Assembly (NCBI GenBank): GCA_028281235.1
Contig: JANQKG010000010.1
Location: forward strand, 1 to 64,000
Length of the DNA stretch: 64,000 bases
Reading direction: 5' to 3'
Origin: Afifellaceae bacterium
Lineage (GTDB): Bacteria; Pseudomonadota; Alphaproteobacteria; Rhizobiales; Afifellaceae
Positions 41,088-58,576 of this stretch are shown piece after piece (position 1 is the stretch's first letter; every line of letters starts with the position of its first letter). The position numbers and the translations under genes are program-made. A model generated the notes under the pieces. That model was not told the origin of the DNA. It ran no database searches and was given only the letters and a program-made list of their open reading frames with translations.

Positions 41088-42060
41088 AGACACAAGCAGA
41101 GCCACAAAGCTGGCCGGCCTTTTGCGGTCGGGCGGCCTGCAATCTCGTCTGCGCCAACAGATCGGTGTGGTCATCGCGCTGCTGCTGCTGATCCTGGTCG
41201 CAAGCCTGGTGTCGGACCGCTTTCTGACGGTTCCGAACCTGCTGAATATCCTGCGGCAGGTCGCGATTGTCGGCATCCTGGCGATGGGTCAGACATTCGT
41301 AATCCTGACGGCCGGGATCGACCTTTCAGTCGGCGCTATTTTGGGCCTTTCCGTCGTGCTGTTCGCATCGCTGCTGGAGGGCCACGGTCTGGCCGTCGCA
41401 ATACCTCTTGGGTTGCTCGCCGGTACCCTTGTTGGGTTGGTCAATGGCATCGGCGTCGCCTATGCGCGCATCCCGGCCTTTATCATGACGCTCGGCATGC
41501 TCTCCTTCGCGCGTGGCTTGGCGTTCATTCATACCGGCGGCACGCCGATCCCGATTCTCAATGAAAACTACTATTACGTGGGCAACGGCTATTTGCTGGG
41601 AATACCGATCCCAGCACTTATCTTCATAGCCACGCTTATCGTCTCGGCGATCGTGCTCCGCCTGACCCCTTTCGGCCGCTGCGTCTATGCAATCGGCTCC
41701 AACGAGGACGCCGCGCGGCTCTCCGGCGTGCCCGTCCGCCGCTACAAGATGCTCGTCTTCGTCGTCTGTGGCTTCACGGCGGCGCTCGCCGGCATGGTCT
41801 TTTCATCCCAGCTCAGCGTCGGGACACCGATTGCCGGCCAGGGCTACGAGCTTGATGCAATCGCCGCAGTGGTCGTCGGAGGCACATCGTTGTTCGGCGG
41901 TAAGGGGTCCGTGTTCGGCACCTTCGTCGGCACCCTGATCATCGGCATCCTGGCCAATATCCTCAACCTGACAGGCGTCGATCCTTTCGTGCAGCAGCTT
42001 GCCAAAGGCGCGCTGATCGTCGTTGCGGTCTATGTCATGAGCCGGTCGAACCGGAGTTGA
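41077..42060 (+). CDS. Ribose-type ABC permease (RbsC-like)
   Basis: This 327-residue membrane protein has about ten hydrophobic segments, the AGIDLSVGA signature near residue 85 and VVGGTSLFGGKGS near residue 268. A TTG start at 41077 overlaps the ATPase end by 11 bases. It forms the channel of the fourth ABC importer. Confidence 0.9.
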   Translation: MPAEDTSRATKLAGLLRSGGLQSRLRQQIGVVIALLLLILVASLVSDRFLTVPNLLNILRQVAIVGILAMGQTFVILTAGIDLSVGAILGLSVVLFASLLEGHGLAVAIPLGLLAGTLVGLVNGIGVAYARIPAFIMTLGMLSFARGLAFIHTGGTPIPILNENYYYVGNGYLLGIPIPALIFIATLIVSAIVLRLTPFGRCVYAIGSNEDAARLSGVPVRRYKMLVFVVCGFTAALAGMVFSSQLSVGTPIAGQGYELDAIAAVVVGGTSLFGGKGSVFGTFVGTLIIGILANILNLTGVDPFVQQLAKGALIVVAVYVMSRSNRS

Positions 42061-42070
42061 GCGAGCCACG

Positions 42071-43288
42071 ATGATCCGCCGATCGTCCGCCATCGATCAG
42101 GCGCTCAGGGCATTTCCCGAAGCGCGAAGCTTGGCGGCAGCGGTCGAAGCATTGCGCCCGATTGTGGACGCATATGTCACCAAGGATCGCGTCCGCCGCT
42201 ATGTCTCCGCGCTGGCCGATATGCCGGCGCCGTCCACGGCAGCAAGCGCCTTCCGCCTGCCGGTGCTGAAGACGCTTCTTGAGGAGGACGGCGCGCTTGG
42301 CGACAGCCGGCTACAATTGCATGAGAATTTCGAGGGGACCGGCAGCACCGTAATGCTGACGGGAGGAGCGCGGAGGAAGCCGATCTGGTATTTCGCGCAT
42401 CTGGATTCGATCAGCTACCTTGTGCGCCCTGAAAGCGGCGGGCGATATCCGCTGGTGCCGTTTTGCTATCATATGATCGAGAACGGCGATCGGCAGGCCC
42501 GCGCCTACCGATACGACCTCTACACGCTCAGCTATCGCATGGTCGCCTCTGGCAGGCTTCAATCGGAGGGCGGGGTGCCGTTCTTTCTGCCCAGCGATCC
42601 ACACGAGCCGCTCGCCGCCGGTGACCGCGTGGTGCCGATCGCCAGCTACAGCGAGGACGAGCCGAGCGGCACCTTTGTCGGCCATGCGGACAATGCGGGC
42701 GGCGTGGCGGCGCTGGCGGTTGCCGCGCCGCTTTTGGCGCGCGCCAATGTGGAAGCGCTGTTGGCCTTTCCTGACGAGGAGGAGGGCCCGCGCGGTTCGG
42801 GCAGCCAGGTCATCGGTCGCGGCGGCACACGCATCGTCAATCAGATGCCGACGCCGGACCTGGCGATCGTCGCCGACATGCAGCAGGCCGGCGGCGACCT
42901 GGAGGAGGGCGCCGACGCTGACGATGCGGCACGGCTTGGCGGTGGCGCGATGCTTGCGGAGTTTTCCAGCCTTGCGCGCGGGGCCGTCACGCCGCCGCCG
43001 CTTTATACTCTGGCCCGTGCGTTCATTGAAACGCTCGCTGCCGTCGGCGTGCGTATCCAGGAATCACGCAACACCTACACATCGCGCAGCGATGACGTCA
43101 GCGTGCTTCTGAAAACGCCGAACATCCTGCTTCTCGGCTTCCCCGGTCTTGATCGCCACTTCGATCGGGCCGAGCCGCGGGCCAATCTCAACGACTTGGT
43201 CGATCTGGCGAAATCGCTCGTCTACTTTGCCGCGCTGCAACCGCAATACCGCGCCATGCAACATCGCATTCGGGAGGCCGACGCGTGA
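42071..43288 (+). CDS. M42-like metallopeptidase/deacylase
   Basis: This 405-residue protein resembles M42/M28 co-catalytic metallopeptidases. Candidate ligands are His and Asp in FAHLDS near residue 112, Asp in GHADNAGGV near residue 206, the EEEG catalytic glutamates near residue 237 and Asp in VADMQQ near residue 270. The last expected ligand region reads DRHFDRAEPRANL, so the final His is plausible but its spacing is not typical. The family cleaves peptides, and relatives deacylate or hydrolyse glycans. Placed after the permease and coupled to the PfkB start, it probably processes the imported compound before phosphorylation. Confidence 0.72.
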   Translation: MIRRSSAIDQALRAFPEARSLAAAVEALRPIVDAYVTKDRVRRYVSALADMPAPSTAASAFRLPVLKTLLEEDGALGDSRLQLHENFEGTGSTVMLTGGARRKPIWYFAHLDSISYLVRPESGGRYPLVPFCYHMIENGDRQARAYRYDLYTLSYRMVASGRLQSEGGVPFFLPSDPHEPLAAGDRVVPIASYSEDEPSGTFVGHADNAGGVAALAVAAPLLARANVEALLAFPDEEEGPRGSGSQVIGRGGTRIVNQMPTPDLAIVADMQQAGGDLEEGADADDAARLGGGAMLAEFSSLARGAVTPPPLYTLARAFIETLAAVGVRIQESRNTYTSRSDDVSVLLKTPNILLLGFPGLDRHFDRAEPRANLNDLVDLAKSLVYFAALQPQYRAMQHRIREADA

Positions 43289-44214
43289 TCGACCTCGTCA
43301 CCGTGGGGTGGCTGACGGTTGACGACATCGTGCTGCCTGAGGGAAGTTGCCAGAAGGACGTTCTCGGCGGCGGTGCCCTTTATTCAGCGGTTGGAGCGCA
43401 GATATGGGGCAGGCGGGTCGGCATTCACTCGGCGGCGGGCGCTGCCTATCTCGACTATACGCGCGGCACCATGGCAGAGCAGGAGCTCGATGTGGAGGGC
43501 ATAGCGCCCGCTCCGGGAAACGGCCTCCAATTGTGGATCCTGCACGAGAGCCAGAAGACCAAGCAGCAAATCCCAAAACTCTCCTCGTCCACTGCGTTGG
43601 AGATGGATGCGGGCCGTGGGCCGCTTCCCGATTCCTATAAAGGAGCACGCGGCTTTCATATCGCGCCGCAGGGCTCCGCAAGCACACTCGCCAACATCCG
43701 CGCACTGAGAGACCTGCCGTCCGACCCAATCGTCACGCTTGATGTTCTCGCCGACGCCTATGTCGACCCCACCCCGTATCGGGAGTCGGACTTTCTTACG
43801 GGGGTGACGGCGTTCCTGCCGAGCGATGCTGAGGTCGGCCGCTTGTGGCAGCCAACCGATCTTGAAAGCTGGGCGCGCGAGCAGGCGCGCCGCTTCGCCT
43901 GTCATGTCGCGGTGAAATGCGGCGCTGAGGGATCGCTGATCTGCGAGGCAGGTGGCGGACAGCTTCATCAGGTTCCGGCGCTGCCGGTAACGGTGGTCGA
44001 TACGACCGGCGCCGGCGACGCTTATTGCGGCGGTTTCCTAGCTGGGCTCCTGGAGAACCGTCCGGTCGAGGAATGCGCGGGCATGGGCACCGTCTCCGCG
44101 TCCTACATAGTGGAAGCGCGCGGCGCGCTTGCCACCAGGCGGCCTGACACCGGGGACCGGGAAGCCCGGCTTGCAGCCGTCATGTCGGAAATCCGAGCGT
44201 TCCGAACCGTATGA
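43285..44214 (+). CDS. PfkB-family carbohydrate kinase
   Basis: This 309-residue kinase starts at GTG 43285 in a GTGA overlap with the preceding stop. It has the GGGALYSAVGAQ substrate-site region near residue 28 and the signature DTTGAGDAYCGGFLAGL near residue 238 with the catalytic Asp. It should phosphorylate a sugar-like intermediate. It lies next to a BtpA gene, as does the PfkB gene at 22735-23634. Confidence 0.9.
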   Translation: MIDLVTVGWLTVDDIVLPEGSCQKDVLGGGALYSAVGAQIWGRRVGIHSAAGAAYLDYTRGTMAEQELDVEGIAPAPGNGLQLWILHESQKTKQQIPKLSSSTALEMDAGRGPLPDSYKGARGFHIAPQGSASTLANIRALRDLPSDPIVTLDVLADAYVDPTPYRESDFLTGVTAFLPSDAEVGRLWQPTDLESWAREQARRFACHVAVKCGAEGSLICEAGGGQLHQVPALPVTVVDTTGAGDAYCGGFLAGLLENRPVEECAGMGTVSASYIVEARGALATRRPDTGDREARLAAVMSEIRAFRTV

Positions 44215-44254
44215 GCAAGGGACCGCTCGTTCCCGCCGCTGCAAAGGAGCCGCG

Positions 44255-45094
44255 ATGACCGCGTCCGTTGTAGAGAAAGACCCGCTTCGCCGCATCTTCG
44301 GCATTGAGAAGCCGCTGATCGGGAATGTCCATTGTGCGCCGCTGCCCGGCACGCCGCGCTATCGCGGCGAGAGCCTTGACGCGATCATGGAGCGCGCGAT
44401 CCGTGATGCGACCACCTACGAACGCGGCGGGATGGACGGTGTCCTCATCGAGAACCACGGCGACATCCCGTTCCTGCCGCCGCATGACATCGGGCCGGAA
44501 ATTGTTGCCGCCATGGCGGTGATCGGAAAGGCGGTGGGTGAGGCGGTCGGCGTGCCGGTCGGTGTCAATCTCCTTGCAAACGGAGCCGTCGGTGCGCTGG
44601 CCATCGCAAAGGCGGCCGGCGCCCGCTTCATCCGCGCCAACCAATGGGTCAATGCCTATGTCGCCAACGAAGGTCTCGTGGAGGGGGAGAGCGGACGGGC
44701 GCTGCGCTATCGCCGGCTGATCGGCGCCGACAATGTGCTGGTGTTCGCCGACGTGCACGTCAAACACGGGGCGCATGCCATCGTGGATGATCGCTCGGTG
44801 GCGGAACAGGCGCGCGACGTCGAATTCTACGATGCCGACGTGGTGATCGCGACGGGAAACCGCACGGGCGATTCCGTCCCCGACACGGAAATCGACTCCG
44901 TCCGTCACGGGACCGGCCTCCCGGTGATCGCCGGAAGCGGCATCACGGCGGACAATGCTCACCAGATCCTGGCGCAGCTTGACGGCGCCATCGTCGGATC
45001 AAGCCTCAAGCGCGACGGTGTGTGGTGGAACGAGGTCCGGCTGGAGAGAGTGCAGGCGCTGGTGGCGGAGGTGAGGCGCCTGCGCGCAGAGTGA
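44255..45094 (+). CDS. BtpA/SgcQ family TIM-barrel protein
   Basis: This 279-residue protein is clearly paralogous to the one at 21878-22738: both contain NQWVNAYVANEGL, FADVHVK-GAHA, DADV-IATG-RTG and a C-terminal DGAIVG segment at the same positions. AAGGAG at 44244-44249 fixes the start at 44255. It ends the fourth ABC operon. The biochemical activity of the family is not settled; coupling to PfkB in two operons of this window supports a role in a kinase-dependent sugar pathway, perhaps as lyase or isomerase on the phosphorylated product. Confidence 0.88.
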   Translation: MTASVVEKDPLRRIFGIEKPLIGNVHCAPLPGTPRYRGESLDAIMERAIRDATTYERGGMDGVLIENHGDIPFLPPHDIGPEIVAAMAVIGKAVGEAVGVPVGVNLLANGAVGALAIAKAAGARFIRANQWVNAYVANEGLVEGESGRALRYRRLIGADNVLVFADVHVKHGAHAIVDDRSVAEQARDVEFYDADVVIATGNRTGDSVPDTEIDSVRHGTGLPVIAGSGITADNAHQILAQLDGAIVGSSLKRDGVWWNEVRLERVQALVAEVRRLRAE

Positions 45095-45213
45095 GCAGCC
45101 AACCGCCGTCGTGGCAGCGCGGCACGGCGAGCAACGGTGCACGATTCGGATGGATCGCCTCGGCGGTAGGTCGTGTCCCGTTTGATGGTGTAGGTGGCGG
45201 GTTGGGCCGCCGC

Positions 45214-45318
45214 GTGCACATCGAGGTCTCTGGAAGACTGTGCAACACTGACGCCACGCACCGTCACCAACTGGACGGCTTCGCTTTTGAACTCGCGGCT
45301 GAATTGTCGTCTCGTCAT
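45214..45318 (-). pseudogene. Remnant of an IS3-family transposase (OrfA N-terminus)
   Basis: Reading the minus strand from ATG 45318, about 35 codons match the start of an IS3-family OrfA (MTRRQFSREFKSEAVQLV, then GVSVAQSSRDLDVH), complete with a GGAGAGC ribosome-binding site. The frame then loses similarity and no OrfB follows. It is a truncated, inactive fragment behind the BtpA gene. Confidence 0.75.
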
Positions 45319-45344
45319 GTCTGCTCTCCGGTTCCAAAACACCC

Positions 45345-45450
45345 TAGAGCATGATCCCGAAAAGTGGACACCGTCTTTTCGGATAAGATCATGCTCAAAC
45401 AAAGAGATAGAGCGTTAGAGCGATTCAACGTAACGCGAAAACGCTCTAAT
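45345..45450. repeat. RIME-like intergenic palindromic repeat
   Basis: Two hairpins stand side by side. The first has outer arms GAGCATGATC (45347-45356) and GATCATGCTC (45387-45396) with inner arms CCGAAAAG and CTTTTCGG. The second has arms TTAGAGCG (45415-45422) and CGCTCTAA (45442-45449). This two-palindrome layout and sequence style is that of the intergenic mosaic elements widespread in Rhizobiales genomes. It lies between the IS remnant and the DUF1028 gene ends. Confidence 0.8.
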
Positions 45451-45493
45451 GCGGTGTCCTCAAACCGGCAGCAGCTCACAGCGTCCTTGCACG

Positions 45494-46195
45494 TCACGAG
45501 GCTTCGCGTTCTAGCCACTCTGTCCACTGCACCTCGGGATTGTCCGGCCAGAAGGAGCTGTAATAGGGGATAAGCGGCCTGTACGCGTCGAACACGCGCC
45601 TCAGCTCGATAACCGCATCGCCGCCATTCTCTGGCGGAACCGGGGTGACGTCGACACGCAGGTCAACGCGGGGCCGGCCCCCAGGTGCACCGACAATCAT
45701 GCCGGCGGAGCGTTGGCCAATGGGCTCGCCGCCTGCGGCAAAGCCGGCTTCAATGGTAAGCATCAGCCGCTCCTCGAAGGCCTCGCCGGAACTGCCTCCA
45801 TAGGCTTCGTACATCGCCTCTACGACCTTGCGGCTGGCCAGGCCGTTGCCCATGACGATGAAGTCCTTGCCGGTCATGTGACCGGTATAGGCCTTGCCAT
45901 TGGCACCCGAATGCACGGCGATCTCGCCGTTAATGGAGACGATGCCGACCTGGCGGTAGTCGAAATGCCGATCATAGCTGCGCAGCATTTCTAGTATCTG
46001 TTCTGGATGCACGTCGTTCGACAGCATGTCGAGACCGAGCATGCCGAGCTTTGGATTGGAATGGCACTGCGAGGAGATTGCGCCCACTCCCGGACGTAGA
46101 TGCGGGCACCGCGAGGCAACACCCAACGGGCTGGTCGCCAGGCAGATGCCGAGGGCATTGTCCTGTGGGTCGCGGGCGATAACCGTATATGTCAT
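45494..46195 (-). CDS. DUF1028-family protein (putative Ntn-type hydrolase)
   Basis: This 233-residue protein has the DUF1028 pattern: MTYTVIARD start, LGICLATSPLG near residue 15, the conserved DRHFDYRQVGIV near residue 75 and GKDFIVMGNGLAS near residue 108. The family is structurally akin to Ntn hydrolases and is often found beside peptide or amino-acid transport genes, but its substrate is unknown. It lies 31 bases after a second DUF1028 gene and shares with it the closing motif PLIPYY. Confidence 0.87.
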   Translation of the reverse strand: MTYTVIARDPQDNALGICLATSPLGVASRCPHLRPGVGAISSQCHSNPKLGMLGLDMLSNDVHPEQILEMLRSYDRHFDYRQVGIVSINGEIAVHSGANGKAYTGHMTGKDFIVMGNGLASRKVVEAMYEAYGGSSGEAFEERLMLTIEAGFAAGGEPIGQRSAGMIVGAPGGRPRVDLRVDVTPVPPENGGDAVIELRRVFDAYRPLIPYYSSFWPDNPEVQWTEWLEREAS

Positions 46196-46226
46196 CAGTC
46201 AATCTCCAGGTCTTGTAGTGCTCAGG

Positions 46227-46973
46227 TTATCGGCCGTGCACGGACACTGCCGGGGTCCAGTCACGCCAGGATCCAATATCGGGGTCGTCCGGCAGTGCCC
46301 TGTAATACGGAATCAACGGCACCCAGGCGTCGACCGTTCGGGTCAGCCGGTCGACGGCATCGCCGGCTGATTGGTCGTCCACCAGATCAACCCGCAAATC
46401 GGTGCGGGGCAGGGCTGCGCCATGTCCGACCATGAGGCTGGCGGAGCGCACTTCGGCCCCCTTCTGGAGCCGATTGCGTCCAGCACTCAGGCCGGCGACC
46501 AGGCGCTGCTCAAGAGGTTCGCTGCTTTTCTCGATGGCCGCCATGGCGGCGTCCAGCGGGCTGGCATCGGGAAGGCCGTTGCCGAGGCACACGGCATGGT
46601 CGCCGACACGCATGGCGGAACTCTGCGGTGTTCGGTCGCCGCTGAATGCTCCAGGTGCGTCCGCGAGCGGCAGGATGCCAACTTGGCGATAGGCAAAATG
46701 CCGATCATGTCGGCGGAGCAGGGCGAAGATTTCGTCCGTCTTCAACGTGTCGCCCAGCAGTTTCAGCGTCAGGGGACCTAGATGCGGATTGGTGAAGGCC
46801 ATGACCAGCACCACCGCGACCTGGCCGTCGATAAACAGGCAACGCGACCCCGCAGCGACTGTGGAGTTGGCGATAGCCGCTCCAACGGCGCCGGTGCGTT
46901 CGCAGCGCGCCATGACGCCGAGGCCGAAATCGGCGGGGCCCGAGAAGGCCGATTGCGTCGGCCCCTTCAGCAC
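46227..46973 (-). CDS. DUF1028-family protein, diverged paralogue
   Basis: This 248-residue protein aligns with its neighbour: LGVMARCERTGAVGAAIANS, DRHFAYRQVGILPL near residue 90, VCLGNGLPD near residue 128 and VPLIPYY near residue 220. It has an N-terminal extension of about 15 residues, and the catalytic-site region has changed (NSTVAAGSR where the neighbour has TSPLGVASR). The start overlaps the regulator's end by 7 bases. The two DUF1028 proteins may form a heteromeric enzyme. Confidence 0.85.
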   Translation of the reverse strand: MLKGPTQSAFSGPADFGLGVMARCERTGAVGAAIANSTVAAGSRCLFIDGQVAVVLVMAFTNPHLGPLTLKLLGDTLKTDEIFALLRRHDRHFAYRQVGILPLADAPGAFSGDRTPQSSAMRVGDHAVCLGNGLPDASPLDAAMAAIEKSSEPLEQRLVAGLSAGRNRLQKGAEVRSASLMVGHGAALPRTDLRVDLVDDQSAGDAVDRLTRTVDAWVPLIPYYRALPDDPDIGSWRDWTPAVSVHGR

Positions 46974-47482
46974 GGCGCTTTGCTCGTGCCGCTCCCGGCC
47001 TCATGGCCGGATGACAAAAGCTCGGCCAGATCTCGGGTGACGCCTTGCAAGAAAAGCTCCAGCTTCTGTTGCTGCTCGCTACTTTCCAAAGCCGGAACAG
47101 CGATCTCCAGCCGGTGCACACCGCCGGCCTGCTGATGCAATCCGTAGATATCGGCAGCCCGGTCGGGATGAGCCGCCAGATAGGCGCGCACAAACACTTG
47201 CTCCTCGGCCGGGGTGAAGCGACTGACCGAGCAGATCGCCCGCACATAGCGCGCCGGCAGCGCTACTGGATAACCGGGATTGGCAATCTGCGAGATGAAC
47301 GAGCGGTCCTTGCCGATGGCGTCGGCTAGGGCCTGACGGCTGCCAGGCGGCCGTCGATCCAGGAACGTATTGAGCAGCAATTTATAGTAGGCTACCGGTG
47401 AGATGTGTTCCTCCAGCACTTTGTAATCACGACTCGGGCGGCGGCCCGGTCGCTTCCGAGTGCGGCTGTCTGCATCGGCCAT
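46967..47482 (-). CDS. HTH transcriptional regulator of the DUF1028-ABC locus
   Basis: This 171-residue protein has a basic N-terminus, then an XRE-like HTH (SRQALADAIGKDRSFISQI, near residues 48-66) and a C-terminal helical region. It is the first gene of the minus-strand unit with both DUF1028 genes, and is divergent from the ABC transporter operon. An inverted repeat at 47520-47549, 38 bases upstream of its start, is a possible operator. No named family is recognised. Confidence 0.72.
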   Translation of the reverse strand: MADADSRTRKRPGRRPSRDYKVLEEHISPVAYYKLLLNTFLDRRPPGSRQALADAIGKDRSFISQIANPGYPVALPARYVRAICSVSRFTPAEEQVFVRAYLAAHPDRAADIYGLHQQAGGVHRLEIAVPALESSEQQQKLELFLQGVTRDLAELLSSGHEAGSGTSKAPC

Positions 47483-47519
47483 TGCGATAACCTCAGTTTA
47501 TTCCCGCGTATTCAAATAG

Positions 47520-47549
47520 TTGCGGGTGTTCATCAACTCGCACCCGCAA
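47520..47549. promoter_or_regulatory. Inverted repeat in the divergent promoter region
   Basis: TTGCGGGTG (47520-47528) and CACCCGCAA (47541-47549) form a perfect 9-bp inverted repeat with a 12-base spacer between the HTH regulator and the ABC operon. It could be the regulator's operator for both directions. Confidence 0.5.
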
Positions 47550-47629
47550 GGAATCGCTGGCGGGCAAGATGCTCAATCTCACGCTCCGATAAGAATCCGA
47601 CACTTCGCTCTTGTCAAGGAGACATATTT

Positions 47630-47710
47630 ATGAACTCAATATGTTTCTCGGCGCCGCGCGTGCTGAGCGGCAACGACCACCGTTACAAGGACAGGGAGAG
47701 GGACCGATGA
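47630..47710 (+). CDS. 26-codon leader ORF of the branched-chain-type ABC operon
   Basis: An ideal AAGGAG (47616-47621), eight bases from ATG 47630, starts a short frame beginning MNSICFSAPRV and ending in the charged tail YKDRERDR. Its stop overlaps the ATG of the binding-protein gene as ATGA. The perfect ribosome-binding site and the coupled stop suggest a translated leader that delivers ribosomes to the next gene. It is not rich in Leu, Ile or Val, so classical attenuation is not indicated. Confidence 0.55.
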   Translation: MNSICFSAPRVLSGNDHRYKDRERDR

Positions 47711-48852
47711 CACCACCGACCACGTTCACGACCATGAGCAGGCGCTTGTTCGTTGCCTGCGCCGTTCTCGGCTTGGCCCTTGTGCCACGCCCGACCCTGG
47801 CCGCAGATCCATTGGTGGTCGGTATGTTCGGACCGCAGAGCGGCGAGCGGTCGGCCTTCGGCACGCGCTTCCGCGAGGCCATTGAGATGTTCGTGGAGGA
47901 GACCAACGAGGCAGGCGGCATCGCCGGCCGGCCGTTGGAGGTGATCTTCGAGGATAGCCGCGGCACCCCGCGCGAGGCTGCGAACATCGCTCAGAAGTTC
48001 GCCCAGAACGACGATATGCTCGCGGTGGTCGGCGGCTGGTCCAGCACCGAATCCATGGCCGCCGCACCGATCCTGGCGGAGGCCAACCTGGCCCAGGTGA
48101 GCCCAACGGCCTCGCATCCCGACTTCACGCAGATCAGCGAATATCAGTTCCGCATGGTCAACACCCAGCAGAGCCTGGCCTTCGTGCACCGCGATCTTCT
48201 GGTAGACAGCCTCGGCGCCAGCAAAGTCGCCATCCTCTACTACCAGGACGACTGGGGTAACTTTGTGAACACCTCCACAGCCGAGAAGTTGCGCGAGGCC
48301 GGTAAGGAAGTCGTGCTGCAGGAGGCCATGATCCCCGACACCAAGGACTTCCGCGCTTTGGTGACCAAAGTGAAGTCGGCGGAGCCCGATGCGGTGTTCC
48401 TGGCTTCGCACTATGCGGAATCGTCCACTTTCATTCGTCAATTGCGCCAAGCCGGCATCGACGTGCCGGTGCTGGGCGCCGACACGCTGCAGAATCCAAA
48501 ATTTCTGGAGCTCGCCGGCGACGCGGCTGAGGGCGTGGTGATGCCCAGCTACTACTTCTCCGAGGACCCCGACGCGCTGGAGTTCACCAAAGCCTATGAG
48601 CAGCGCTGGGGTCGGCTGCCGGATTACTATGCCGTGTTCGGCTATGACGCCATCGCCATCATCGCACAGGCCATCGACACGGTGATCAAGTCCGGCCAGG
48701 AACTGACGCGTGATGCGGTGCGCGACGCGGTTGCGGCAACCACCGACTTTCCCGGCGTTGGAGGGCCCAATACATTCGACGAGATCGGCGACGTGGTGAA
48801 GCCGATGCGCGTGATTCAAATCCGTGACGGCGATTACGCATTGTATAACTGA
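47707..48852 (+). CDS. Branched-chain amino-acid-type ABC solute-binding protein (LivK-like)
   Basis: This 381-residue periplasmic protein of the Peripla_BP_6 family has a signal peptide (MSRRLFVACAV to TLAAD, about residues 10-33) and typical stretches IGG-like GEAGGIAGRPLEVIFED (seen as EAGGIAGRPLEV near residue 70) and SPTASHPDF near residue 134. The start at 47707 has a purine-rich AGGGAGAGG upstream and is coupled to the leader ORF; an upstream in-frame start at 47611 would lack a signal peptide at its N-terminus. The family binds amino acids, amides, urea or aromatic acids. The DUF1028 neighbours suggest an amide or peptide-like ligand. Confidence 0.9.
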   Translation: MTPPTTFTTMSRRLFVACAVLGLALVPRPTLAADPLVVGMFGPQSGERSAFGTRFREAIEMFVEETNEAGGIAGRPLEVIFEDSRGTPREAANIAQKFAQNDDMLAVVGGWSSTESMAAAPILAEANLAQVSPTASHPDFTQISEYQFRMVNTQQSLAFVHRDLLVDSLGASKVAILYYQDDWGNFVNTSTAEKLREAGKEVVLQEAMIPDTKDFRALVTKVKSAEPDAVFLASHYAESSTFIRQLRQAGIDVPVLGADTLQNPKFLELAGDAAEGVVMPSYYFSEDPDALEFTKAYEQRWGRLPDYYAVFGYDAIAIIAQAIDTVIKSGQELTRDAVRDAVAATTDFPGVGGPNTFDEIGDVVKPMRVIQIRDGDYALYN

Positions 48853-48893
48853 TCCTCATAGATCAGTTGGACGGCCGCGCCACGCGGCCGTCC
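48847..48893 (+). other. Two consecutive stem-loops after the binding-protein gene
   Basis: AACTGATC/GATCAGTT (48847-48854 with 48861-48868) is followed at once by GGACGGCCGCG (48869-48879) pairing perfectly with 48883-48893. They separate the binding-protein gene from the fused permease gene and probably protect the upstream message. Confidence 0.65.
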
Positions 48894-48942
48894 GCCCGTA
48901 TCTTGCTCTGCTGATGCCCCCAACCCGCCGGCCTGAACGTCG

Positions 48943-50820
48943 ATGATCGAGTTCCTCAGCCAGATCCTCAACGGCCTGATCATCGGTAACATCTACGCCA
49001 TCATCGCGATCGGTTTCACACTGATCTTCGGCGTATCCAACCTGATCAATTTCGCCCAAGGCTCGCTGCTGATGCTGGGCGGCTTCCTTGCTTACACGCT
49101 TGTCGGACTAGGGGTGGATGTTTGGGCGGCGGCGGCCGGCTCGATCGTATTCACCATGGGGATCGGCATGGCGATCGAGCGCATCGCCCTGCGGCCGCTT
49201 GAGAAGGCGCCATGGATCGCGCCTTTGCTCTCCACCCTGGCCATAACTTTCGTCTTCGACCAATCGGCGGAGCTGATCTGGTCGCCGGAAATACAGCCCT
49301 TTCCAAGCCCCTTGTCGGAATATGTCTGGCTGATCGGTGCGGCTTTCGTCACCGGCATCGATGTCGCAATTCTGGTGGTGTCGCTGCTCACGGTGCTGGT
49401 GCTGTGGCTGTTCCTCACCCGCACATGGACCGGGCGGGCGTTACGCGCCATGTCGCAAGACCTTGATGCGGCGCGCCAGATGGGCATCGATGTCGATTAT
49501 CACCGGCAAATTGCCTTCGGCATCGGCGCCGCTTTGGCGGCGCTGGCCGGCGTGCTGGTGGCGATGTATTTCCAGAACATCTTTCCGCAGATGGGGATTC
49601 CGTTCGGCCTCAAGGGCTTCGCTGCAGCGTTGCTCGGCGGCCTTGCCAGCGTTCCCGGAGCCATTGTCGGCGGCTTTGCCCTCGGCATCTTGGAGTCGCT
49701 TGCGGTCGGCTATGTCGGCGAGGGTGCTCGCGACATGATCGCTTTCTCCGCTTTGCTGTTGGTGCTGTTGGTGCGGCCCCAGGGTTTGTTTGGCCACCGG
49801 CGGCTCGACTCACTTGGCGGCACCGGCGGCGCCTCGGGTATCATGCCGACCACTAGCATCCTGGCAGGCCAGGGCGGGGCGATGCGCGCCGTGCGGCACC
49901 GGTTCGAGCTGTCGACGCCGGCGGTCTTCGGCGTCTGCGCCGTTCTGGCGTTACTGCCGCTCACCGGACTGGACAACTATATCCTGCAGGCGATCCTGCT
50001 GGCGGCGATCTTCGCCATCCTCACCGTCAGTCTCACCGTGCTTGGCGGCAGCGCTGGTGTGATGTTCATCGGCTTCGGTGGCCTCTTCGCCATGGGCGCT
50101 TATATAGGCGCCTTCGCGGCCAAGAGCTGGGGCCTGCCGGCGGAGCTGGCGATCCCCGTAGCCGGTATCGCCTCAGGACTCCTCGCCCTCGCCGTCGGCA
50201 TGATCTGCGTCCCCCTATCGGGGCATGTGGTTGCGCTGGCTGCCCTGGCGATCGGCAATCTGGTTTATTTGGTGTTCCTCAACTGGATCTCCGTGACCGG
50301 TGGGCCGAACGGCATTTTCGGTATTCCCCGCCCGTCGCTTGCCATTGCCGGCGGGCTTTCGCTGGGTTCGCTCCAGGCGCAATATCTCCAGGCCATCTTC
50401 TGTTTCCTGGTGATGTTCATCCTCGCCCGGCGCCTGATTACATCGCCGATCGGACGCACTTTCCGCGCCATCAGAGAAGACCGGCCGGCGGCGGAAGCGG
50501 CTGGCATTCCGGTGCGGCGATATCTGTTGACCGCCTTCGTCTTCGCAGGCTTCGGCGCCGGTGTTGCAGGCAGCCTCTACACCTTCCTGCACCGCTTCAT
50601 CAGCGCCGACAGCTTCCGACTGGACACGTCCTTTCTGCTGGTGGCAGCCGCGGTGCTGGGCGGGCTCGGCAATGTCACCGGAGCGATGATCGCCGGGGCG
50701 GCCATCGTGCTGCTGCCGGAACTGCTGCGCGGCTTTGCAGACTATCGCATGGTGGTGTTCGGCCTCCTGCTGCTGGTTGCCCTGAGGGTCCGGCCGGAGG
50801 GCCTGGCCGGCGTGCGCTGA
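48943..50820 (+). CDS. Fused LivH-LivM permease
   Basis: This 625-residue membrane protein joins both permeases of a branched-chain-type ABC importer. Residues 1-290 correspond to LivH (FGVSNLINFAQGSLLMLG near residue 30; GLKGFAAALLGG near residue 222), a hydrophilic linker follows at about 290-310, and residues 320-625 correspond to LivM (GYNLLGG-like LTVLGGSAGVMFIGFGGL near residue 366; AIREDRPAAEAAGI near residue 510). LivH and LivM are normally separate genes. There is no stop or frameshift at the junction, so the fusion looks genuine. The ATPase gene follows 5 bases after. Confidence 0.9.
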   Translation: MIEFLSQILNGLIIGNIYAIIAIGFTLIFGVSNLINFAQGSLLMLGGFLAYTLVGLGVDVWAAAAGSIVFTMGIGMAIERIALRPLEKAPWIAPLLSTLAITFVFDQSAELIWSPEIQPFPSPLSEYVWLIGAAFVTGIDVAILVVSLLTVLVLWLFLTRTWTGRALRAMSQDLDAARQMGIDVDYHRQIAFGIGAALAALAGVLVAMYFQNIFPQMGIPFGLKGFAAALLGGLASVPGAIVGGFALGILESLAVGYVGEGARDMIAFSALLLVLLVRPQGLFGHRRLDSLGGTGGASGIMPTTSILAGQGGAMRAVRHRFELSTPAVFGVCAVLALLPLTGLDNYILQAILLAAIFAILTVSLTVLGGSAGVMFIGFGGLFAMGAYIGAFAAKSWGLPAELAIPVAGIASGLLALAVGMICVPLSGHVVALAALAIGNLVYLVFLNWISVTGGPNGIFGIPRPSLAIAGGLSLGSLQAQYLQAIFCFLVMFILARRLITSPIGRTFRAIREDRPAAEAAGIPVRRYLLTAFVFAGFGAGVAGSLYTFLHRFISADSFRLDTSFLLVAAAVLGGLGNVTGAMIAGAAIVLLPELLRGFADYRMVVFGLLLLVALRVRPEGLAGVR

Positions 50821-50825
50821 TCGAC

Positions 50826-52571
50826 ATGGAGCCCGCCAATATGCCGGAAACGCCCCACGACATGGCGGCGCCTCATGCGTTGTCGTCGCAGCCGGCTCTG
50901 GAGATCGATGGTTTGACCGTCGCCTTCGGCGGCGTTCGGGCCGTTGACGATCTGAGCCTTGCGATTGCCGGCGGCGACGTCCTAGGAGTCGTGGGACCGA
51001 ACGGCGCCGGCAAGTCGACCCTGGTGCAAGCGATCAGCGGCTTTGCCCGCCCCTCGGCCGGGCGCATCCGCCTGTTCGGTAAGGACGTGACACGCGCAAG
51101 CCCATCGCGTCGCGCGGCGATCGGCCTTGGCCGCACTTTTCAGACCAGCCGGGTATTCCCGGCCCTGACGGTGATGGAGAGCGTGCTCGCCGGCGAGCAG
51201 CAGCGCTTGATCGGCAGCAAGGACGGACGCAGCATCGGGCCTTTCGGCGAGGTGGTAGCCGCTATTCTCGGCAGCGGCAGCTACCTAAGGCGCCAGCGTG
51301 CCATGGTCGGGCGCGCCGAGGTGGTGATGCAGCTTTTCGGCGACCGCTTGTGGAGCCGACGCGACGACCCCGCCCACTCGCTCTCCTATGCCAACCGCCG
51401 GCGTCTCGACATCGCCCGGGCCCTTGTCGCCGAGCCGCGCCTGCTGATGCTCGACGAGCCGACGGCCGGCATGAACCCGACCGAGACCGCCGAGCTCGCC
51501 GGCGTTCTGGAAGAGGTGCGCCAACGCTATCCCGACATGGCGGTACTGCTGATCGAGCACAAGCTCGACGTGATCCGCCGGCTGACCGGTCGAACCATCG
51601 TCATCAACCAGGGCAAGATCATTGTCGATGCGCCTCCGGCCGAAGCTTTGGCCCATCCGGAGGTGACTGCGGCTTATCTCGGACGCCCCAGCGATGCACC
51701 GCGCGGCGATGCCGAGGAAGCGCCGAAAGCACCGTCCCTGGCCAGCGGGTCCTCCGAGGCCCTATCCAGCGGTCTTGACATCGAACGCTGCGACGTTGAG
51801 GCGGGAGATGGCGCAGCTCGGGCGGTGGTGCTCAGCAATGTGGACGTCTTCTACGGTCCGGTGCAGGCGCTTTTCGACGTCTCCATCGAGGTGCGGCAGG
51901 GCGAGGTGGTCGCCGTTCTCGGCGGAAACGCCTCCGGCAAGTCGACCGTCATCAAGACTGTCCTCGGCCTCACCGAGGTGCGCTCCGGCACCGTTGAGTT
52001 GTTCGGCGATGCCGTGGCCGGCCGCCCCACGCCTGCCCGCATTGCCCTGGGCTTGGCCTCGATCCCGGAAGGGCGTCGGATGTTCGCCGAGATGAGCGTA
52101 GAGGACAACCTGCTTCTGGGGGCCTATGTGCGGCGCAAGGACCAAGATTTCGACCGCGCAAACTTGCTTGCTCGGGTTTATGAGGAATTTCCGTGGCTGG
52201 CGGAGCGCCGTGGCCAGCTTGCCGGAACGCTTTCCGGCGGAGAGCAGCAGATGCTGGCCATGGCGCGTGCGTGGTTGCGGCGCCCGCGCCTGCTGTGCAT
52301 CGACGAGCCGTCCATGGGCCTGGCGCCGGTGATGGTCGACCGTGTCTATGCCATCCTTGAGCGCTGGAAACGGGCCGGCCTTACGATTCTGATGGTGGAG
52401 CAGAGCGCAAACCGGGCGCTGGAATTGGCCGATCGCGCCTATGTGCTGCAGAACGGACGCATCGCCATAGCCGGTGACAGTGCCGATTTGCGTCAGGATC
52501 CGGCAATTCGTACTGCCTATTTGGGCGCTGAAAGTGATGAGCAGCCTTTGCCTCAACTCGCAGACGCATGA
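50826..52571 (+). CDS. Fused LivG-LivF ATPase
   Basis: This 581-residue protein joins two ABC ATPase domains. The LivG-like domain (about 20-285) has Walker A GPNGAGKST, a relaxed signature HSLSYANRRRLDIARAL and Walker B LLMLDEPTAGMNP. The LivF-like domain (about 340-575) has the variant Walker A GGNASGKST, signature LSGGEQQMLAMARA and LLCIDEPSMGLAP. An acidic Ala/Ser-rich linker of about 50 residues connects them. With the fused permease, one chain of each kind could make a complete transporter. Confidence 0.9.
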   Translation: MEPANMPETPHDMAAPHALSSQPALEIDGLTVAFGGVRAVDDLSLAIAGGDVLGVVGPNGAGKSTLVQAISGFARPSAGRIRLFGKDVTRASPSRRAAIGLGRTFQTSRVFPALTVMESVLAGEQQRLIGSKDGRSIGPFGEVVAAILGSGSYLRRQRAMVGRAEVVMQLFGDRLWSRRDDPAHSLSYANRRRLDIARALVAEPRLLMLDEPTAGMNPTETAELAGVLEEVRQRYPDMAVLLIEHKLDVIRRLTGRTIVINQGKIIVDAPPAEALAHPEVTAAYLGRPSDAPRGDAEEAPKAPSLASGSSEALSSGLDIERCDVEAGDGAARAVVLSNVDVFYGPVQALFDVSIEVRQGEVVAVLGGNASGKSTVIKTVLGLTEVRSGTVELFGDAVAGRPTPARIALGLASIPEGRRMFAEMSVEDNLLLGAYVRRKDQDFDRANLLARVYEEFPWLAERRGQLAGTLSGGEQQMLAMARAWLRRPRLLCIDEPSMGLAPVMVDRVYAILERWKRAGLTILMVEQSANRALELADRAYVLQNGRIAIAGDSADLRQDPAIRTAYLGAESDEQPLPQLADA

Positions 52572-52646
52572 GCATGAGCCTGTGAGAGGCAAAGGCAGAC
52601 TCGCCATTGGGGCATCTTCGATCAAAACGCATGCAGCTTCGGTGGC

Positions 52647-52814
52647 CTAGTGTCCCGAATCTGAAGTTCGCATGATTATTCAGCCCGCTCCGAACGAACT
52701 TCAGATTCGATAGGGACACTAGCAAGATATTGAAGCTCGTGTGGTTTTAGGGTTTGAAGTTCCTATGGCGAGCTCGCCGGAATAATGAAAGGAACTTCAA
52801 ACCCACCACACTAG
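52647..52814. mobile_element. Two adjacent inverted-repeat (MITE-like) elements
   Basis: Element 1 (52647-52722) has long arms, 52647-52670 and 52695-52722, ending in CTAG-TGTCCC and GGGACA-CTAG. Element 2 (52739-52811) has arms beginning GTGTGGTTTT and ending ACCACAC, followed by CTAG. Both arm pairs share the core TGAAGTTC. No transposase lies inside. The CTAG ends resemble target sites of IS630-type elements, so these may be non-autonomous derivatives, or simply foldback repeats. Confidence 0.6.
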
Positions 52815-53005
52815 ATGGCTGGCTCATAAGTCTGCTCGGCGCGGCGGTAGAGAAGGGTGACACAACAGCCAAGATCGAGACTGCCAAGACCGTGGTGGAG
52901 TTGGAAGCTCTAAAGGCGGGCACGTTGCTGGCGATCACCGCGCCTGAAGCTTCTGAGATCGAGGTCGGTGAGCTTCTCGCTCGGATCGGTAAGCTAGGCG
53001 GCTAG
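52814..53005 (+). pseudogene. Remnant of a lipoyl/biotinyl attachment domain
   Basis: An open frame that begins inside element 2 (52754) runs into a lipoyl-domain-like sequence: VEKGDT, IETAKTVVELEALKAGTLLAI and EIEVGELLARIG. These match the lipoyl core of 2-oxoacid dehydrogenase E2 proteins, where IETDK carries the modified Lys. The segment between VEKGDT and IET is shortened and no other E2 domain follows, so it is probably a fragment cut off by the element. A small free-standing carrier protein is less likely. Confidence 0.5.
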
Positions 53006-53099
53006 GCTTTGCGCGCTCCCGCGCGATACATGTGGATGGTTGCGGTTGGCCCTCGATCTCTAAGCGGCACGAGCATGCCCACGGCTTGTCCTGGCAGAA

Positions 53100-53534
53100 T
53101 CATCGGCTGACAATGGCGCTCACCGGTGCAATGCCGCTGATGCGCGGGGCGCATTCGTCCGCGCCGATGAAGCTGCCTTCGATGCGGCAGATGCCAACGA
53201 CAAAGTGGTAACTGTCGATGTCGTCGCAGGGTGCATCCGGCGTTTCGAAAGTGGCGGAGGCGGTGCCGCCCGGCGGCGCCGCAAGGAGCGACGCGCCCTT
53301 GCTGCGGGCGACCTGCTCCTCGCCGATGCGCAGCATCAAGCGGCCGTTGATCTCGTCAAGAACCACGTCGTCGGTCGTGTTGGTGACCGTCAAAGTGACC
53401 GTGCAGTAATAGTCGCGTTTCCCGGTGTCGGTGAGAGACAGCTCAAAGTCCGCCGCGCCGGCATTGTCCAAACAAGCGCCGGCGGCGATCCCGCCGACAA
53501 AGGCAGCGGCCAGGAACGTCGCGCTTTTCATCAT
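53100..53534 (-). CDS. Secreted small protein of unknown function
   Basis: This 144-residue protein has a Sec signal peptide (MMKSATFLAAAFVGGIAAGA, cleavage near AGAAD at residue 28). The mature part looks beta-rich with four Cys residues (YYC, APC, GIC, DEC) that could form two disulfides. No family is recognised. Its start overlaps the stop of the haem-monooxygenase-like gene as ATGA, so it is translated with it and may act in the same haem or iron process in the periplasm. Confidence 0.7.
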   Translation of the reverse strand: MMKSATFLAAAFVGGIAAGACLDNAGAADFELSLTDTGKRDYYCTVTLTVTNTTDDVVLDEINGRLMLRIGEEQVARSKGASLLAAPPGGTASATFETPDAPCDDIDSYHFVVGICRIEGSFIGADECAPRISGIAPVSAIVSR

Positions 53535-53848
53535 GCCTTGATCTCCTGAAGGATGGTGAAGCCCTCAAATTCCGGATGGCCGAGATAGAGGGGCTTGTTG
53601 CCGCCGGCGTCCTTGTGGGCGGCGCGAAACGCTTCGGAGCGTGTCCAGTTAAGGAATGCGTCTTCAGAGGCCCAAAGCGTGTGCGACGAGTAGAGGACGT
53701 GGTCATCGCGTCCGGGGCCGCGAAGAAGATGGAAAGCGACGAACCCGGGCACCTTGTTCAGATGCACCTCGCGGTTCAGCCAAACGGCCTCAAAATCCTC
53801 TTCCGATCCCTTCTTCACCTTGAAGCGGTTCATGGCGATGTATTGCAT
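53531..53848 (-). CDS. Antibiotic-biosynthesis-monooxygenase-fold protein, HmuQ-like haem monooxygenase
   Basis: This 105-residue protein has the ABM dimeric alpha/beta barrel fold pattern: MNRFKVKKGSEEDFE at the start, VPGFVAFHLLRGP near residue 30, LYSSHTLWAS near residue 48, then SEAFRAAHKDAG. The sequence closely resembles rhizobial HmuQ/HmuD haem-degrading monooxygenases, which open haem to release iron. The start at 53848 matches the family length. The frame stays open upstream to ATG 54034, so an N-terminal extension of 62 residues is possible. Confidence 0.78.
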   Translation of the reverse strand: MQYIAMNRFKVKKGSEEDFEAVWLNREVHLNKVPGFVAFHLLRGPGRDDHVLYSSHTLWASEDAFLNWTRSEAFRAAHKDAGGNKPLYLGHPEFEGFTILQEIKA

Positions 53849-54030
53849 GGCACTGCCTTCTCCATGTGCGGCCCGTTGATGCGTCGGCGCTACACGCGGG
53901 TCCTTTCGGGTGAACCGTCCCTCTAGCAACGGCTGCGCCTCGGCGGTATCGCAGGAGCCGGCGCTATATGACGCAATCTGGTGAACGAGATCGTCGACCT
54001 CGCGGTCACGCTCTGCGGTCATCGTCATTG

Positions 54031-54243
54031 TCATTCGCCTCTCACCGGGAACTGCGCCAGCGCTGTCCTCAAAGAAGACTGGCTCGACGTACGCAGAGGA
54101 AGAAACGGCTTGCCCTGCAGCCGACAAAGGCGCTTGGCGTGCAGGCAGGCGTCGTGGCTAATGCAGTCCACGGGGCAAAGCACGCAGTCGACGGCATCGT
54201 TCGCGCGGGCGCCCGACGGCGCCGGAGCGGCGGAGGACTCGTT
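54031..54243 (-). other. Cys-rich open frame without a usable start
   Basis: On the minus strand a 70-codon frame with strongly GC-biased third positions contains VDCVLCPVDCISHDACLHAK and a later Cys. Its stop forms an ATGA overlap with ATG 54034 of the upstream extension of the haem-monooxygenase frame. It has no ATG; a TGA precedes it, and ATG 54247 lies in another frame. It could be a gene disabled by a frameshift, or start at an internal GTG. Confidence 0.35.
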
Positions 54244-54465
54244 TCATGTCACGCTCCATCAGCAGGGTTCAAAGCCCTGCCATCGAGGCGTGGAGAGAGT
54301 GAGCAAACGTAGATTCTGAGTCAATAAAAAAGAATTTAAAAGTCAGGATAACACAGCGTCGCGTCGTGTGACGCGATATCGTCTTTCAAACTAGAATAAA
54401 TACAGACTGGCGCAGTTCAGCGTTTCGTTGAATCGCGTGGGCCCTTAAGGCCACGGCGAAACGCT
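54244..54465. other. AT-rich stretch with no supported gene
   Basis: From about 54310 to 54420 the sequence turns AT-rich (AATAAAAAAGAATTTAAAAG). This is the likely promoter region for the minus-strand haem-monooxygenase unit. No clear -35/-10 pair or iron-box palindrome was recognised. Confidence 0.35.
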
Positions 54466-54660
54466 AGATCAAAGCAAAGCCGACAAAACCCGCACACCAC
54501 AGCAGGCCCGCAAGGCCATAAAGCCAAAGCTCCCATTGTGGCAGTGCGCCCCCCAACAGACGCGCGGGCAAATCGCCGCTGAAAGAAAGAACGGCCGGAA
54601 CCCGAACGAGAGGACGGCCGGGCGGGACCAGGTGCGCATCTGCTCAGCGGAGACCGTCAT
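54466..54660 (-). pseudogene. NnrS-family remnant (N- and C-terminal pieces, frameshifted)
   Basis: From ATG 54660 the minus strand encodes RPAVLSFGFRPFFLSAA, the typical N-terminal signature of NnrS membrane proteins. The similarity continues in a second frame, QWELWLYGLAGLLWCAGFVG, which resembles the last membrane segment of NnrS, and stops at a TAG. About 300 residues between these ends are missing. NnrS proteins contain haem and copper and belong to nitric-oxide and denitrification regulons. Confidence 0.5.
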
Positions 54661-54851
54661 GTTCTCGTCCGCCCGTCTCGTCGTTCGGTATCACTCCGCG
54701 GCCGACATGGCGCGAGCCTCATTCTACTCAAGCCGCAGCTCGCGGCAGGGTGAAGAAGTCGCCGTGGTAGAGGTGCTGCGCCGGTGTTCGGAGGCTGCGA
54801 TCGGAACCGACGTGCGAACAGGCCGTGCGTCGTTAGTTGCGGCCGAGGTTG

Positions 54852-55469
54852 TTACTTTGATGCGTCCTCCGGTTCGAATGCCTGAGCGACCAGGCTACGA
54901 ACGGCCCAGTCCAAGGCCCTGGCTGCATCCTTCTTCTTCAGACCGCACAGATCAGACATCACGATCCATGCTTCCACTCCGATGAGGGCAGATAGAGCGC
55001 TGACCAGGTTACGGTAGGTTTGGTCGTCAAGCTTGTCGCGCTGCGGTTCCAGTGCCTTTTCGATCAGTTCCAGACGCCGGTATGAGCGCGGCGGGCTCTG
55101 CGCGCTGCTGCGGTCGCCGGCGATCGAGTTGGCCATCGCAACGCGCAGCAAATTCCTGAACTGCACTTCATTGCGACTTGCAAGGTCGAGCAAATAGGCG
55201 TTGACCTTAGCCACCCTGTCCGCCGGGCTCCCGCCGGCAAGGTCCTTGAACAGTTCTTCCGACGTCTGCGTACGGTCCGCGAGCGGAGCCTCAACAAGCA
55301 ACGTCTCCTGGCTCGGGAAGTAGCGATAGGCGGTGGCGCGTGAGATGCGCGCGTGCTCGGCTGCCTCCACGACCGTTGGGGTCCGCCCGCGCTTCATGAG
55401 CTCGGCGGCCGATTCCAAAAGTGCCTCGCGCGTGCGGTCCTTCTGTTGGTTTCTTGGCCTTTTTTTCAT
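54852..55469 (-). CDS. TetR-family transcriptional regulator
   Basis: This 205-residue regulator has an N-terminal TetR HTH (REALLESAAELMKRGRTPTVVEAAEHARISRATAYRYF spans it, residues 12-49) and a helical ligand domain. ATG 55469 is chosen; a GTG start at 55505 would add 12 residues. It is divergent from the third TRAP operon, 143 bases away, which it probably represses. Direct repeats of TGATACT lie just upstream of its start. Confidence 0.87.
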   Translation of the reverse strand: MKKRPRNQQKDRTREALLESAAELMKRGRTPTVVEAAEHARISRATAYRYFPSQETLLVEAPLADRTQTSEELFKDLAGGSPADRVAKVNAYLLDLASRNEVQFRNLLRVAMANSIAGDRSSAQSPPRSYRRLELIEKALEPQRDKLDDQTYRNLVSALSALIGVEAWIVMSDLCGLKKKDAARALDWAVRSLVAQAFEPEDASK

Positions 55470-55495
55470 TGATACTGAATTCTCATCATGATACT
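55470..55495. promoter_or_regulatory. Direct repeats near the TetR start
   Basis: TGATACT occurs at 55470-55476 and again at 55489-55495, 19 bases apart (about two helical turns), between the TetR gene and the divergent TRAP operon. They may be operator half-sites, though TetR proteins more often bind inverted repeats. Confidence 0.3.
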
Positions 55496-55612
55496 TATGT
55501 CGCACGAAAGGTGCCGGTTTTCAGGGCAAATGAGCGGCAGAGCCGCGGCAGAAGGTCTGCCAGCCGGCCATAACGACACAGCCTAAGCAGGAACTGGACT
55601 GGAGGAACCGAG

Positions 55613-56656
55613 ATGACAAAAACTCCCCGTTTAGCCATGCGCCGCCTGACCGCGATCGGCGCGTTCTCACTATCGGTCATCGTAGCCTCGTTGGCCATAA
55701 CGCCCGCCGTCGCCGATGATCCAATTGTGCTTCGCATGGCCGATGCGCAAGTGCCCGGCGAGCCGAGCTACGAGTCGCAGGTCTGGTTCCATGACGAGGT
55801 GAAGAAGCGGACCAATGGCCGCGTTGAGATTCAGTATTTCCCCAACTCGCAGCTCGGGACGGATAAGCAATACCTCCCGGCCATCCTGGCGGGGACCCTG
55901 GATATGGGCAAGTCGAGCGCCGGCAATTTCGCGGATTTCTCCGACGCTCTCTCCTTCGCACAGCTTCCTGGCATCGTGCACAATCCGGAGCATATGCGCG
56001 CGATCTGGGACAGCGATATCCGTGAAGAGGTCGCAGCGCAGATCAAGGCTGATACCGGCCTCACCGTGATTCAGTTCGACATTGACGGCGGTGCAGCGCG
56101 GGCGCTGGCCTACAAGGGCGATCCGATCCGCACGCTCGACGACATGAAGGGGCGCAAGTTCCGCTCAACCGGCGCACCGGTCGAGATGGCGCTGTTCCAG
56201 GCCTGGGGCGTCAACGCCACCCCAATTGCATGGGGCGAGCTCTACACCGCACTTCAGCAACGGGTGGTCGACGGTCTCTATGGCCATCCGCCTGGCGTCT
56301 TCACCAGCGGGATGGTCGAGGTCGTCGACAACCTGACGATCGTCAACATGTCCTACATCACGTCCATCCGGGTGATGAGCAAGCAGGCTGTGGAGAAGCT
56401 CGGCGGCGAGGGCTCCGAGCTGCTGGAGATTGTGCTTCAGGTTGCCCGTGAGGCGGAGCACATCAAGGACGAGATGAATCGCGAGGAACTCAAGACCGTC
56501 AAAGAACGTTATGCCAGCGCCGGCGTGGGATATTTCGAGCTCACTCGCGAAGAGCTCCAGCCGTGGCGTGAAGCTGCGCAGACGGTGTGGGCGGACTTCG
56601 TCGGCTCCAAGATATCGCCCGACCTGATCGCGAGAATCGAGGCGTTGTCGCCGTAA
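55613..56656 (+). CDS. dctP: TRAP transporter substrate-binding protein (DctP-like)
   Basis: This 347-residue periplasmic protein has a signal peptide (cleavage near AVADD at residue 34) and DctP motifs: FPNSQLGTDKQY near residue 79, GRKFRSTGAPV near residue 182 and WGELYTALQQRVVDG near residue 206. GGAGG lies upstream of the ATG. It is the first gene of the third TRAP operon, followed by a strong stem-loop. Confidence 0.93.
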   Translation: MTKTPRLAMRRLTAIGAFSLSVIVASLAITPAVADDPIVLRMADAQVPGEPSYESQVWFHDEVKKRTNGRVEIQYFPNSQLGTDKQYLPAILAGTLDMGKSSAGNFADFSDALSFAQLPGIVHNPEHMRAIWDSDIREEVAAQIKADTGLTVIQFDIDGGAARALAYKGDPIRTLDDMKGRKFRSTGAPVEMALFQAWGVNATPIAWGELYTALQQRVVDGLYGHPPGVFTSGMVEVVDNLTIVNMSYITSIRVMSKQAVEKLGGEGSELLEIVLQVAREAEHIKDEMNREELKTVKERYASAGVGYFELTREELQPWREAAQTVWADFVGSKISPDLIARIEALSP

Positions 56657-56668
56657 AGCATCCTCCCG

Positions 56669-56708
56669 AAGGCGGCGGGCGTGACTGAGCGGTCAAGCCC
56701 GCCGCCTT
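56669..56708 (+). other. Stem-loop between dctP and dctQ
   Basis: AAGGCGGCGGGC (56669-56680) pairs perfectly with GCCCGCCGCCTT (56697-56708) around a 16-base loop, followed by TACC. It is probably a stability or partial termination element that favours dctP over the permease genes. Confidence 0.65.
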
Positions 56709-56742
56709 TACCGGGTTCCTCTCAGCTGCGAGGGTTCCGCCC

Positions 56743-57258: not shown

Positions 57259-57273
57259 TCCCCGCATCTGCTT

Positions 57274-58560: not shown

Positions 58561-58576
58561 GCGAGGAAGACAGAAC

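Follow-up and report, generated by a model that had tools for sequence, protein, structure and literature searches.

The window analysed here is a 64,000-nt stretch of contig JANQKG010000010.1 from an Afifellaceae bacterium, and positions 45494-52571 of it hold six ORFs, all of which lie where the original prediction had placed them. Three genes on the minus strand, coding for DUF1028-A (A), DUF1028-B (B) and a regulator-like protein, form a leftward arm that diverges from a plus-strand ABC importer of the Liv type. The spacing within the leftward arm is operon-like: A and B are separated by 31 bp, and the GTG start codon of B shares 7 nt (GTGCTGA) with the stop of the regulator-like gene. Both DUF1028 proteins score far above the gathering cut-off of the Pfam family DUF1028 (PF06267; 26.2 bits), and they are 34-36% identical to each other. 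Thus the tandem DUF1028 pair that abuts and overlaps a regulator gene, as well as the divergent three-gene importer of the branched-chain type (one Peripla_BP_6, two BPD_transp_2 and two ABC_tran domains), are both recovered as originally proposed. Scores from HMMs, modelled folds and the GC pattern by codon position exclude a chance origin of the cassette genes. A and B are the only DUF1028 genes in the source genome (4.4 Mb). Searches of positions 45000-53200 against the Rfam families gave no match, nor did a search for phage families. The features on which the following analysis is based are:

45494..46195, minus strand: DUF1028-A, predicted active Thr-type Ntn hydrolase (Pfam 177.5 bits; AF2 model with pLDDT 93.4)
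46190..46192, minus strand: Thr2 codon of A, candidate N-terminal nucleophile once the Met is removed (Thr in 83/83 homologues; the first strand of the model begins here)
46227..46973, minus strand: DUF1028-B, diverged and predicted catalytically dead paralogue (Pfam 114.2 bits; AF2 model with pLDDT 92.1)
46461..46469, minus strand: L169-Q170-K171 of B, replacing the conserved GG(E/Q/D) loop (G155 in 83/83 and G156 in 82/83 homologues)
46923..46925, minus strand: Gly17 codon of B, at the place of the invariant Thr (alignments; sole exception among the sequences examined)
46967..47482, minus strand: small regulator-like gene, 171 aa, probable XRE-type HTH (sequence pattern; HTH_31 E=0.12)
47520..47549, no strand: perfect inverted repeat TTGCGGGTG-N12-CACCCGCAA in the divergent intergenic region, candidate operator
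47707..48852, plus strand: Peripla_BP_6 substrate-binding protein (Pfam 2.2e-67; closest solved relative 3hut)
48943..50820, plus strand: fused LivH-LivM permease (two BPD_transp_2 stretches in 625 aa; LivH and LivM models match its halves)
50826..52571, plus strand: fused LivG-LivF ATPase (two ABC_tran stretches in 581 aa; LivG and LivF/UrtE models match its halves)

Importer, regulator and flanking DNA

The importer has the same set and order of domains as the Liv/HAAT branched-chain importers (binding protein, permeases, ATPases), but it comprises three genes because both the permease pair and the ATPase pair are fused. The ORF of the binding protein opens at TTG 47611, with the likely start at 47707, before the signal peptide and just downstream of a GGGAGAGG ribosome site. 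Its scores stay well below the curated NCBIfam cut-offs, both for branched-chain amino acid binding proteins (137.5 versus 477) and for the urea-binding protein UrtA (67.1 versus 492.75), so that a Liv substrate is not implied by the architecture and we rejected an assignment of the importer to urea or branched-chain amino acids; one half of the ATPase passes the cut-off for UrtE. The closest relative of the importer in our order sample (G108; 45% identity of the binding proteins) has no adjacent DUF1028 gene, and the present combination of importer and DUF1028 genes is therefore probably local.

Both arms share a divergent intergenic region of 224 bp. The HTH regulator beside it is the weakest of the proposed features: the sequence of the regulator-like protein reads as a probable XRE-type HTH and its relatives stand beside catabolic ABC operons, but no Pfam family passes its cut-off. 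These relatives (34-43% identity, from the same class) are found next to sugar ABC, DhaK, PfkB and SIS genes, neighbours that are consistent with a role as operon regulator and uninformative on the substrate of the present cassette. An inverted repeat of 9 nt as good as the one in the intergenic region occurred in 15 of 1000 shuffled sequences, and upstream of the regulator's relatives the repeat was not found.

Two different dispersed repeats bracket the cassette. The left one (45344-45449) is ~105 bp long, with ~40 copies among the matches listed in this genome, and the right one (52646-52815) is ~170 bp long, partly palindromic and present in >30 copies; both are multicopy in a genome of the same genus too, and neither has an Rfam match. 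Between DUF1028-A and a BtpA operon there is a minus-strand fragment (44959-45402) like an IS3-type transposase OrfA, in which HTH_Tnp_1 falls just under its cut-off. Further to the left, positions 37202-45094 hold a LacI regulator, a ribose-type ABC importer, an M20-like hydrolase, a PfkB kinase and a BtpA/SgcQ gene in a row, which resembles an operon for the catabolism of a sugar or nucleoside-like compound that includes a BtpA-family step.

Active-site residues of the two DUF1028 proteins

AlphaFold models of A and B were built from alignments of the window sequences and the fetched homologues. In the model of A the secondary structure elements follow the order S1(2-9) S2 S3 S4 H1 H2 S5 S6 S7 S8 H3 H4 S9 S10 H5, and the same order (S1 S2 S3 S4 H1 H2 S5-S8 H3 H4 S9 S10 H5) is that of the proteasome beta subunit. 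Searching both models with Foldseek, we found the DUF1028 structure 2IMH (SPO2555) as the best PDB match, followed by subunits of the 20S proteasome, HslV and Anbu type; a proteasome-like Ntn fold is thus predicted for A as well as for B (pLDDT >92 in both cases), and the proposed resemblance of DUF1028 proteins to Ntn hydrolases is borne out. Proteasome beta, HslV and Anbu also have their nucleophile at the start of strand 1, although their identity to A and B is only ~8-14% and the TM-scores are ~0.4-0.5; for A and B nothing indicated a ring assembly or a protein substrate. In SCOPe, 2IMH is listed as an Ntn subfamily of its own, with the N-terminal Thr as nucleophile (PMC9140057), and this only solved DUF1028 structure comes without peer-reviewed data (PMC9140057). 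Our literature search found no demonstrated substrate for a DUF1028 protein.

In an alignment of 83 non-redundant DUF1028 homologues from the fetched loci, T2, G16, R81, Q82, G97, N117, R143 and G155 are present in all sequences, and G116, L144 and G156 in 82; the Thr is also kept in ~22 further sequences of the phylum sample. DUF1028-A (233 aa, no signal peptide seen) retains T2, Q43, RQ81-82, GN116-117, R143 and GGE155-157. Its N-terminus reads MTYT, placing the Thr that SCOPe gives as catalytic in 2IMH (PMC9140057) directly after the start Met and at the start of strand 1. For ~70 of the 83 homologues the Thr likewise follows the start-codon residue (Met, or Val/Leu possibly read from GTG/TTG), so that removal of the Met would expose it, while in about a dozen it is preceded by Asn, His or Ser, pointing to cleavage of a propeptide. 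N-terminal extensions whose last residue ahead of the Thr is Asn, His, Ser or Gly were seen at loci L089, L090, L043, L109, L113 and L169; by analogy with classic Ntn enzymes this suggests self-cleaved propeptides. Judged by its residues and its model, A looks like a working amide-cutting enzyme of the Thr-type Ntn class.

DUF1028-B is the only sequence examined that lacks both the Thr and the GG loop. It is a protein of 248 aa with a GTG start and an N-terminal extension of 15 residues, modelled at low confidence and probably disordered. Neither Thr nor Ser or Cys stands at the start of strand 1, where Gly17 is found instead; in addition, Gly19 replaces Ser/Thr4, Met58 replaces Gln43, and LQK replaces the GG(E/Q) loop. 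Of these losses that of Gln43 is the weakest, since Met at this position is also found in five homologues that do bear the Thr. In the fold, H4 and S9 flank the GG loop, whose place appears from the topology to be the one that the Asp166/Ser169 loop occupies in the proteasome beta subunit. GTG 46973 is the only in-frame ATG, GTG or TTG before codon 21 of B; whichever start is chosen, strand 1 therefore does not begin with an N-terminal nucleophile. Having lost the Thr and the conserved Gly-Gly loop, B cannot be an ordinary Ntn enzyme, and we consider it very unlikely, from its residues, that it acts as a Thr-type Ntn hydrolase. That one subunit of the pair has changed active-site residues, as originally proposed, is thus well supported.

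Distribution, phylogeny and neighbourhoods of DUF1028 genes

A DUF1028 gene is present in 160 of the 397 genomes of the order sample, and among the matches listed for these genomes no adjacent pair besides A/B was found. No orthologue of B was found in the 264 phylum genomes, a genome collection scanned with B as the sole query gave no match, and no orthologous A/B pair was found in the order-, class- and phylum-level samples. The same-genus genome G008 lacks a DUF1028 gene, and at the DNA level it has no counterpart of positions 40000-59900 of the window besides dispersed repeats and a few short matches. Conservation of the pairing in other genomes, to which the original prediction had looked as a check, is therefore not supported in these samples: the A/B pair is known from this genome only, a Liv-type permease lies near only two of 42 other DUF1028 loci, and the idea that the pair is conserved in relatives was rejected.

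In the phylogenetic tree, A groups with L014, L105, L108, L064 and L106 (support 97/83), a group drawn from G014, KLAP182, Ramlibacter, G688 and an alphaproteobacterial MAG. B falls outside this group and has the longest of all branches (3.35 changes per column). On this basis we reject the idea that B arose by a recent tandem duplication of A, and as B is no supported sister of A, a simple history of duplication and specialization is not supported either. Clustered or tandem DUF1028 genes were observed elsewhere, namely in Stella (three genes), Ramlibacter albus (two), an alphaproteobacterial MAG (two), G515 (three), an Enhydrobacter MAG (four) and a Reyranella MAG (four plus two). The four-gene arrays of Enhydrobacter (L112:10001-12845) and Reyranella (L113:3066-5904) are in tight tandem and pair gene by gene in the tree, which indicates that such sets are stably kept; multi-copy DUF1028 sets can, to judge from these sequences, be functional units. 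Loss of the Thr is not a common feature of tandem arrays, as every array member has it. D-glutamate-cyclase-like genes were seen near the four-gene arrays, two in L112 and one in L113.

An ABC ATPase lies within 5 kb of 15 of the 42 DUF1028 loci (compared to 3 of 17 control loci), an enrichment that is weak overall. In the clade of A the association is stronger. Among the five closest relatives of A, four are located in importer clusters of the PotABCD type, and clusters of this type were found at L043, L087, L105 and L106; the DUF1028 gene is flanked by transporter genes in L105 and stands beside amidohydrolase and M24 genes in L087. ABC importer clusters with DUF1028 hold genes for RidA, M20/ArgE deacylases, amidohydrolase, M24 peptidase and N-carbamoyl-D-amino-acid hydrolase, and the neighbours of more distant DUF1028 genes include RidA, ArgE/M20, FAD oxidoreductase, N-carbamoyl-D-amino-acid hydrolase and D-glutamate-cyclase-like genes. 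This context suggests that amide-type amino-acid derivatives are imported and degraded. The idea of a dedicated import-and-hydrolysis system fits the importer and hydrolase surroundings of A's relatives; its other part, the partnership with a Liv-type importer, is unusual for the family.

Proposed function and competing readings

The reading that we favour, tentatively and with slightly less than even confidence, is that the cassette couples import to amide hydrolysis in the cytoplasm, with A as the enzyme, B as its catalytically dead partner, and local regulation. The solute taken up by the Liv-type importer would be small and contain an amide; the most likely candidates are amino-acid derivatives of the N-acyl, N-carbamoyl, gamma-glutamyl or another peptide-like kind. 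The divergent regulator may control both arms from the common intergenic region. The start Met of A would be removed, and the exposed Thr (Thr1) would attack the amide bond in the cytoplasm. B, keeping the Ntn fold, may serve as a non-catalytic partner of A in assembly, stability or substrate shaping, presumably within a complex. The import and hydrolysis steps build on family knowledge and genomic context; the step that makes B a partner draws only on the loss of residues and gene adjacency.

The proteasome mixes active and inactive beta subunits, and to our knowledge no pseudoenzyme partner has been described before in the DUF1028 Ntn subfamily. A heteromeric DUF1028 enzyme that joins an active subunit of the Thr-type Ntn class to a dedicated dead paralogue and is coupled to its own importer is possible but on balance doubtful, and the physical A-B complex is putative. 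If true, it would be the first such partner in this subfamily and would offer a handle on the substrate: no substrate is established for this widespread Ntn family, and finding the ligand of the binding protein and then testing it on A would be a route to one. B, lacking the Thr, is a natural control for what the Ntn fold does when it cannot catalyse, and since tandem arrays recur, DUF1028 enzymes of several subunits may be a general phenomenon. Prozymes, i.e. inactive paralogues that activate an active partner, are described for trypanosome AdoMetDC and deoxyhypusine synthase (in PMC5201418 and PMC3663545); the likeness is one of concept only, as the proteins are unrelated and B would be an activator by analogy alone.

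The strongest rival to this mechanism sees in B a relic: a DUF1028 copy that diverged, no longer functions and is being lost, so that the chemistry is left to A alone. We regard this as unlikely, even though the long branch of B, the loss of three of the most conserved positions, the lack of a detectable orthologue and the absence of a good ribosome site at its start all speak for it. The ORF of B is intact, the GC content by codon position is normal and the fold is modelled with confidence; moreover, 8 of the 11 near-invariant positions are kept (including the G, RQ, G, GN and RL motifs), which under fully neutral drift would have a chance of ~2e-7 by rough arithmetic. The retained residues and the intact frame argue that the fold has been under selection for most of the long branch, although the loss of function may be recent.

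Alternatively, B could have a role of its own, independent of A: it may use the Ntn scaffold to bind a ligand or to regulate, or it may be an enzyme whose active site differs. The retained RQ, GN and RL motifs would suit such a role, as would the overlap with the adjoining regulator gene and the extension, which suggests an altered N-terminus; but with no alternative candidate nucleophile at the start of strand 1 and an extension that is probably disordered, we find this quite improbable. Similarly improbable is an accident of acquisition that brought together an importer and DUF1028 genes with different substrates, as the rarity of Liv-type permeases at DUF1028 loci, the binding-protein relative in G108 that stands without DUF1028 and the lack of a counterpart of the region in G008 might indicate, since the divergent layout around a common intergenic region with an inverted repeat, and the repeated ties of A-clade DUF1028 genes to importers of another type, speak against it.

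Returning to import coupled to hydrolysis by A, the closest known systems include the RidA-DUF1028-ArgE/M20-ABC importer clusters, for example those of Klebsiella and Pantoea plasmids, which share with our cassette a DUF1028 gene, an ABC importer and hydrolases for amino-acid derivatives; the cassette differs from them in its Liv-type importer, its two DUF1028 genes and the lack of RidA and ArgE. On a conjugative Klebsiella plasmid, the RidA, DUF1028, ArgE and ABC importer genes lie together at L115:7556-16630, and a DUF1028 match is present in 105 Klebsiella plasmid records.
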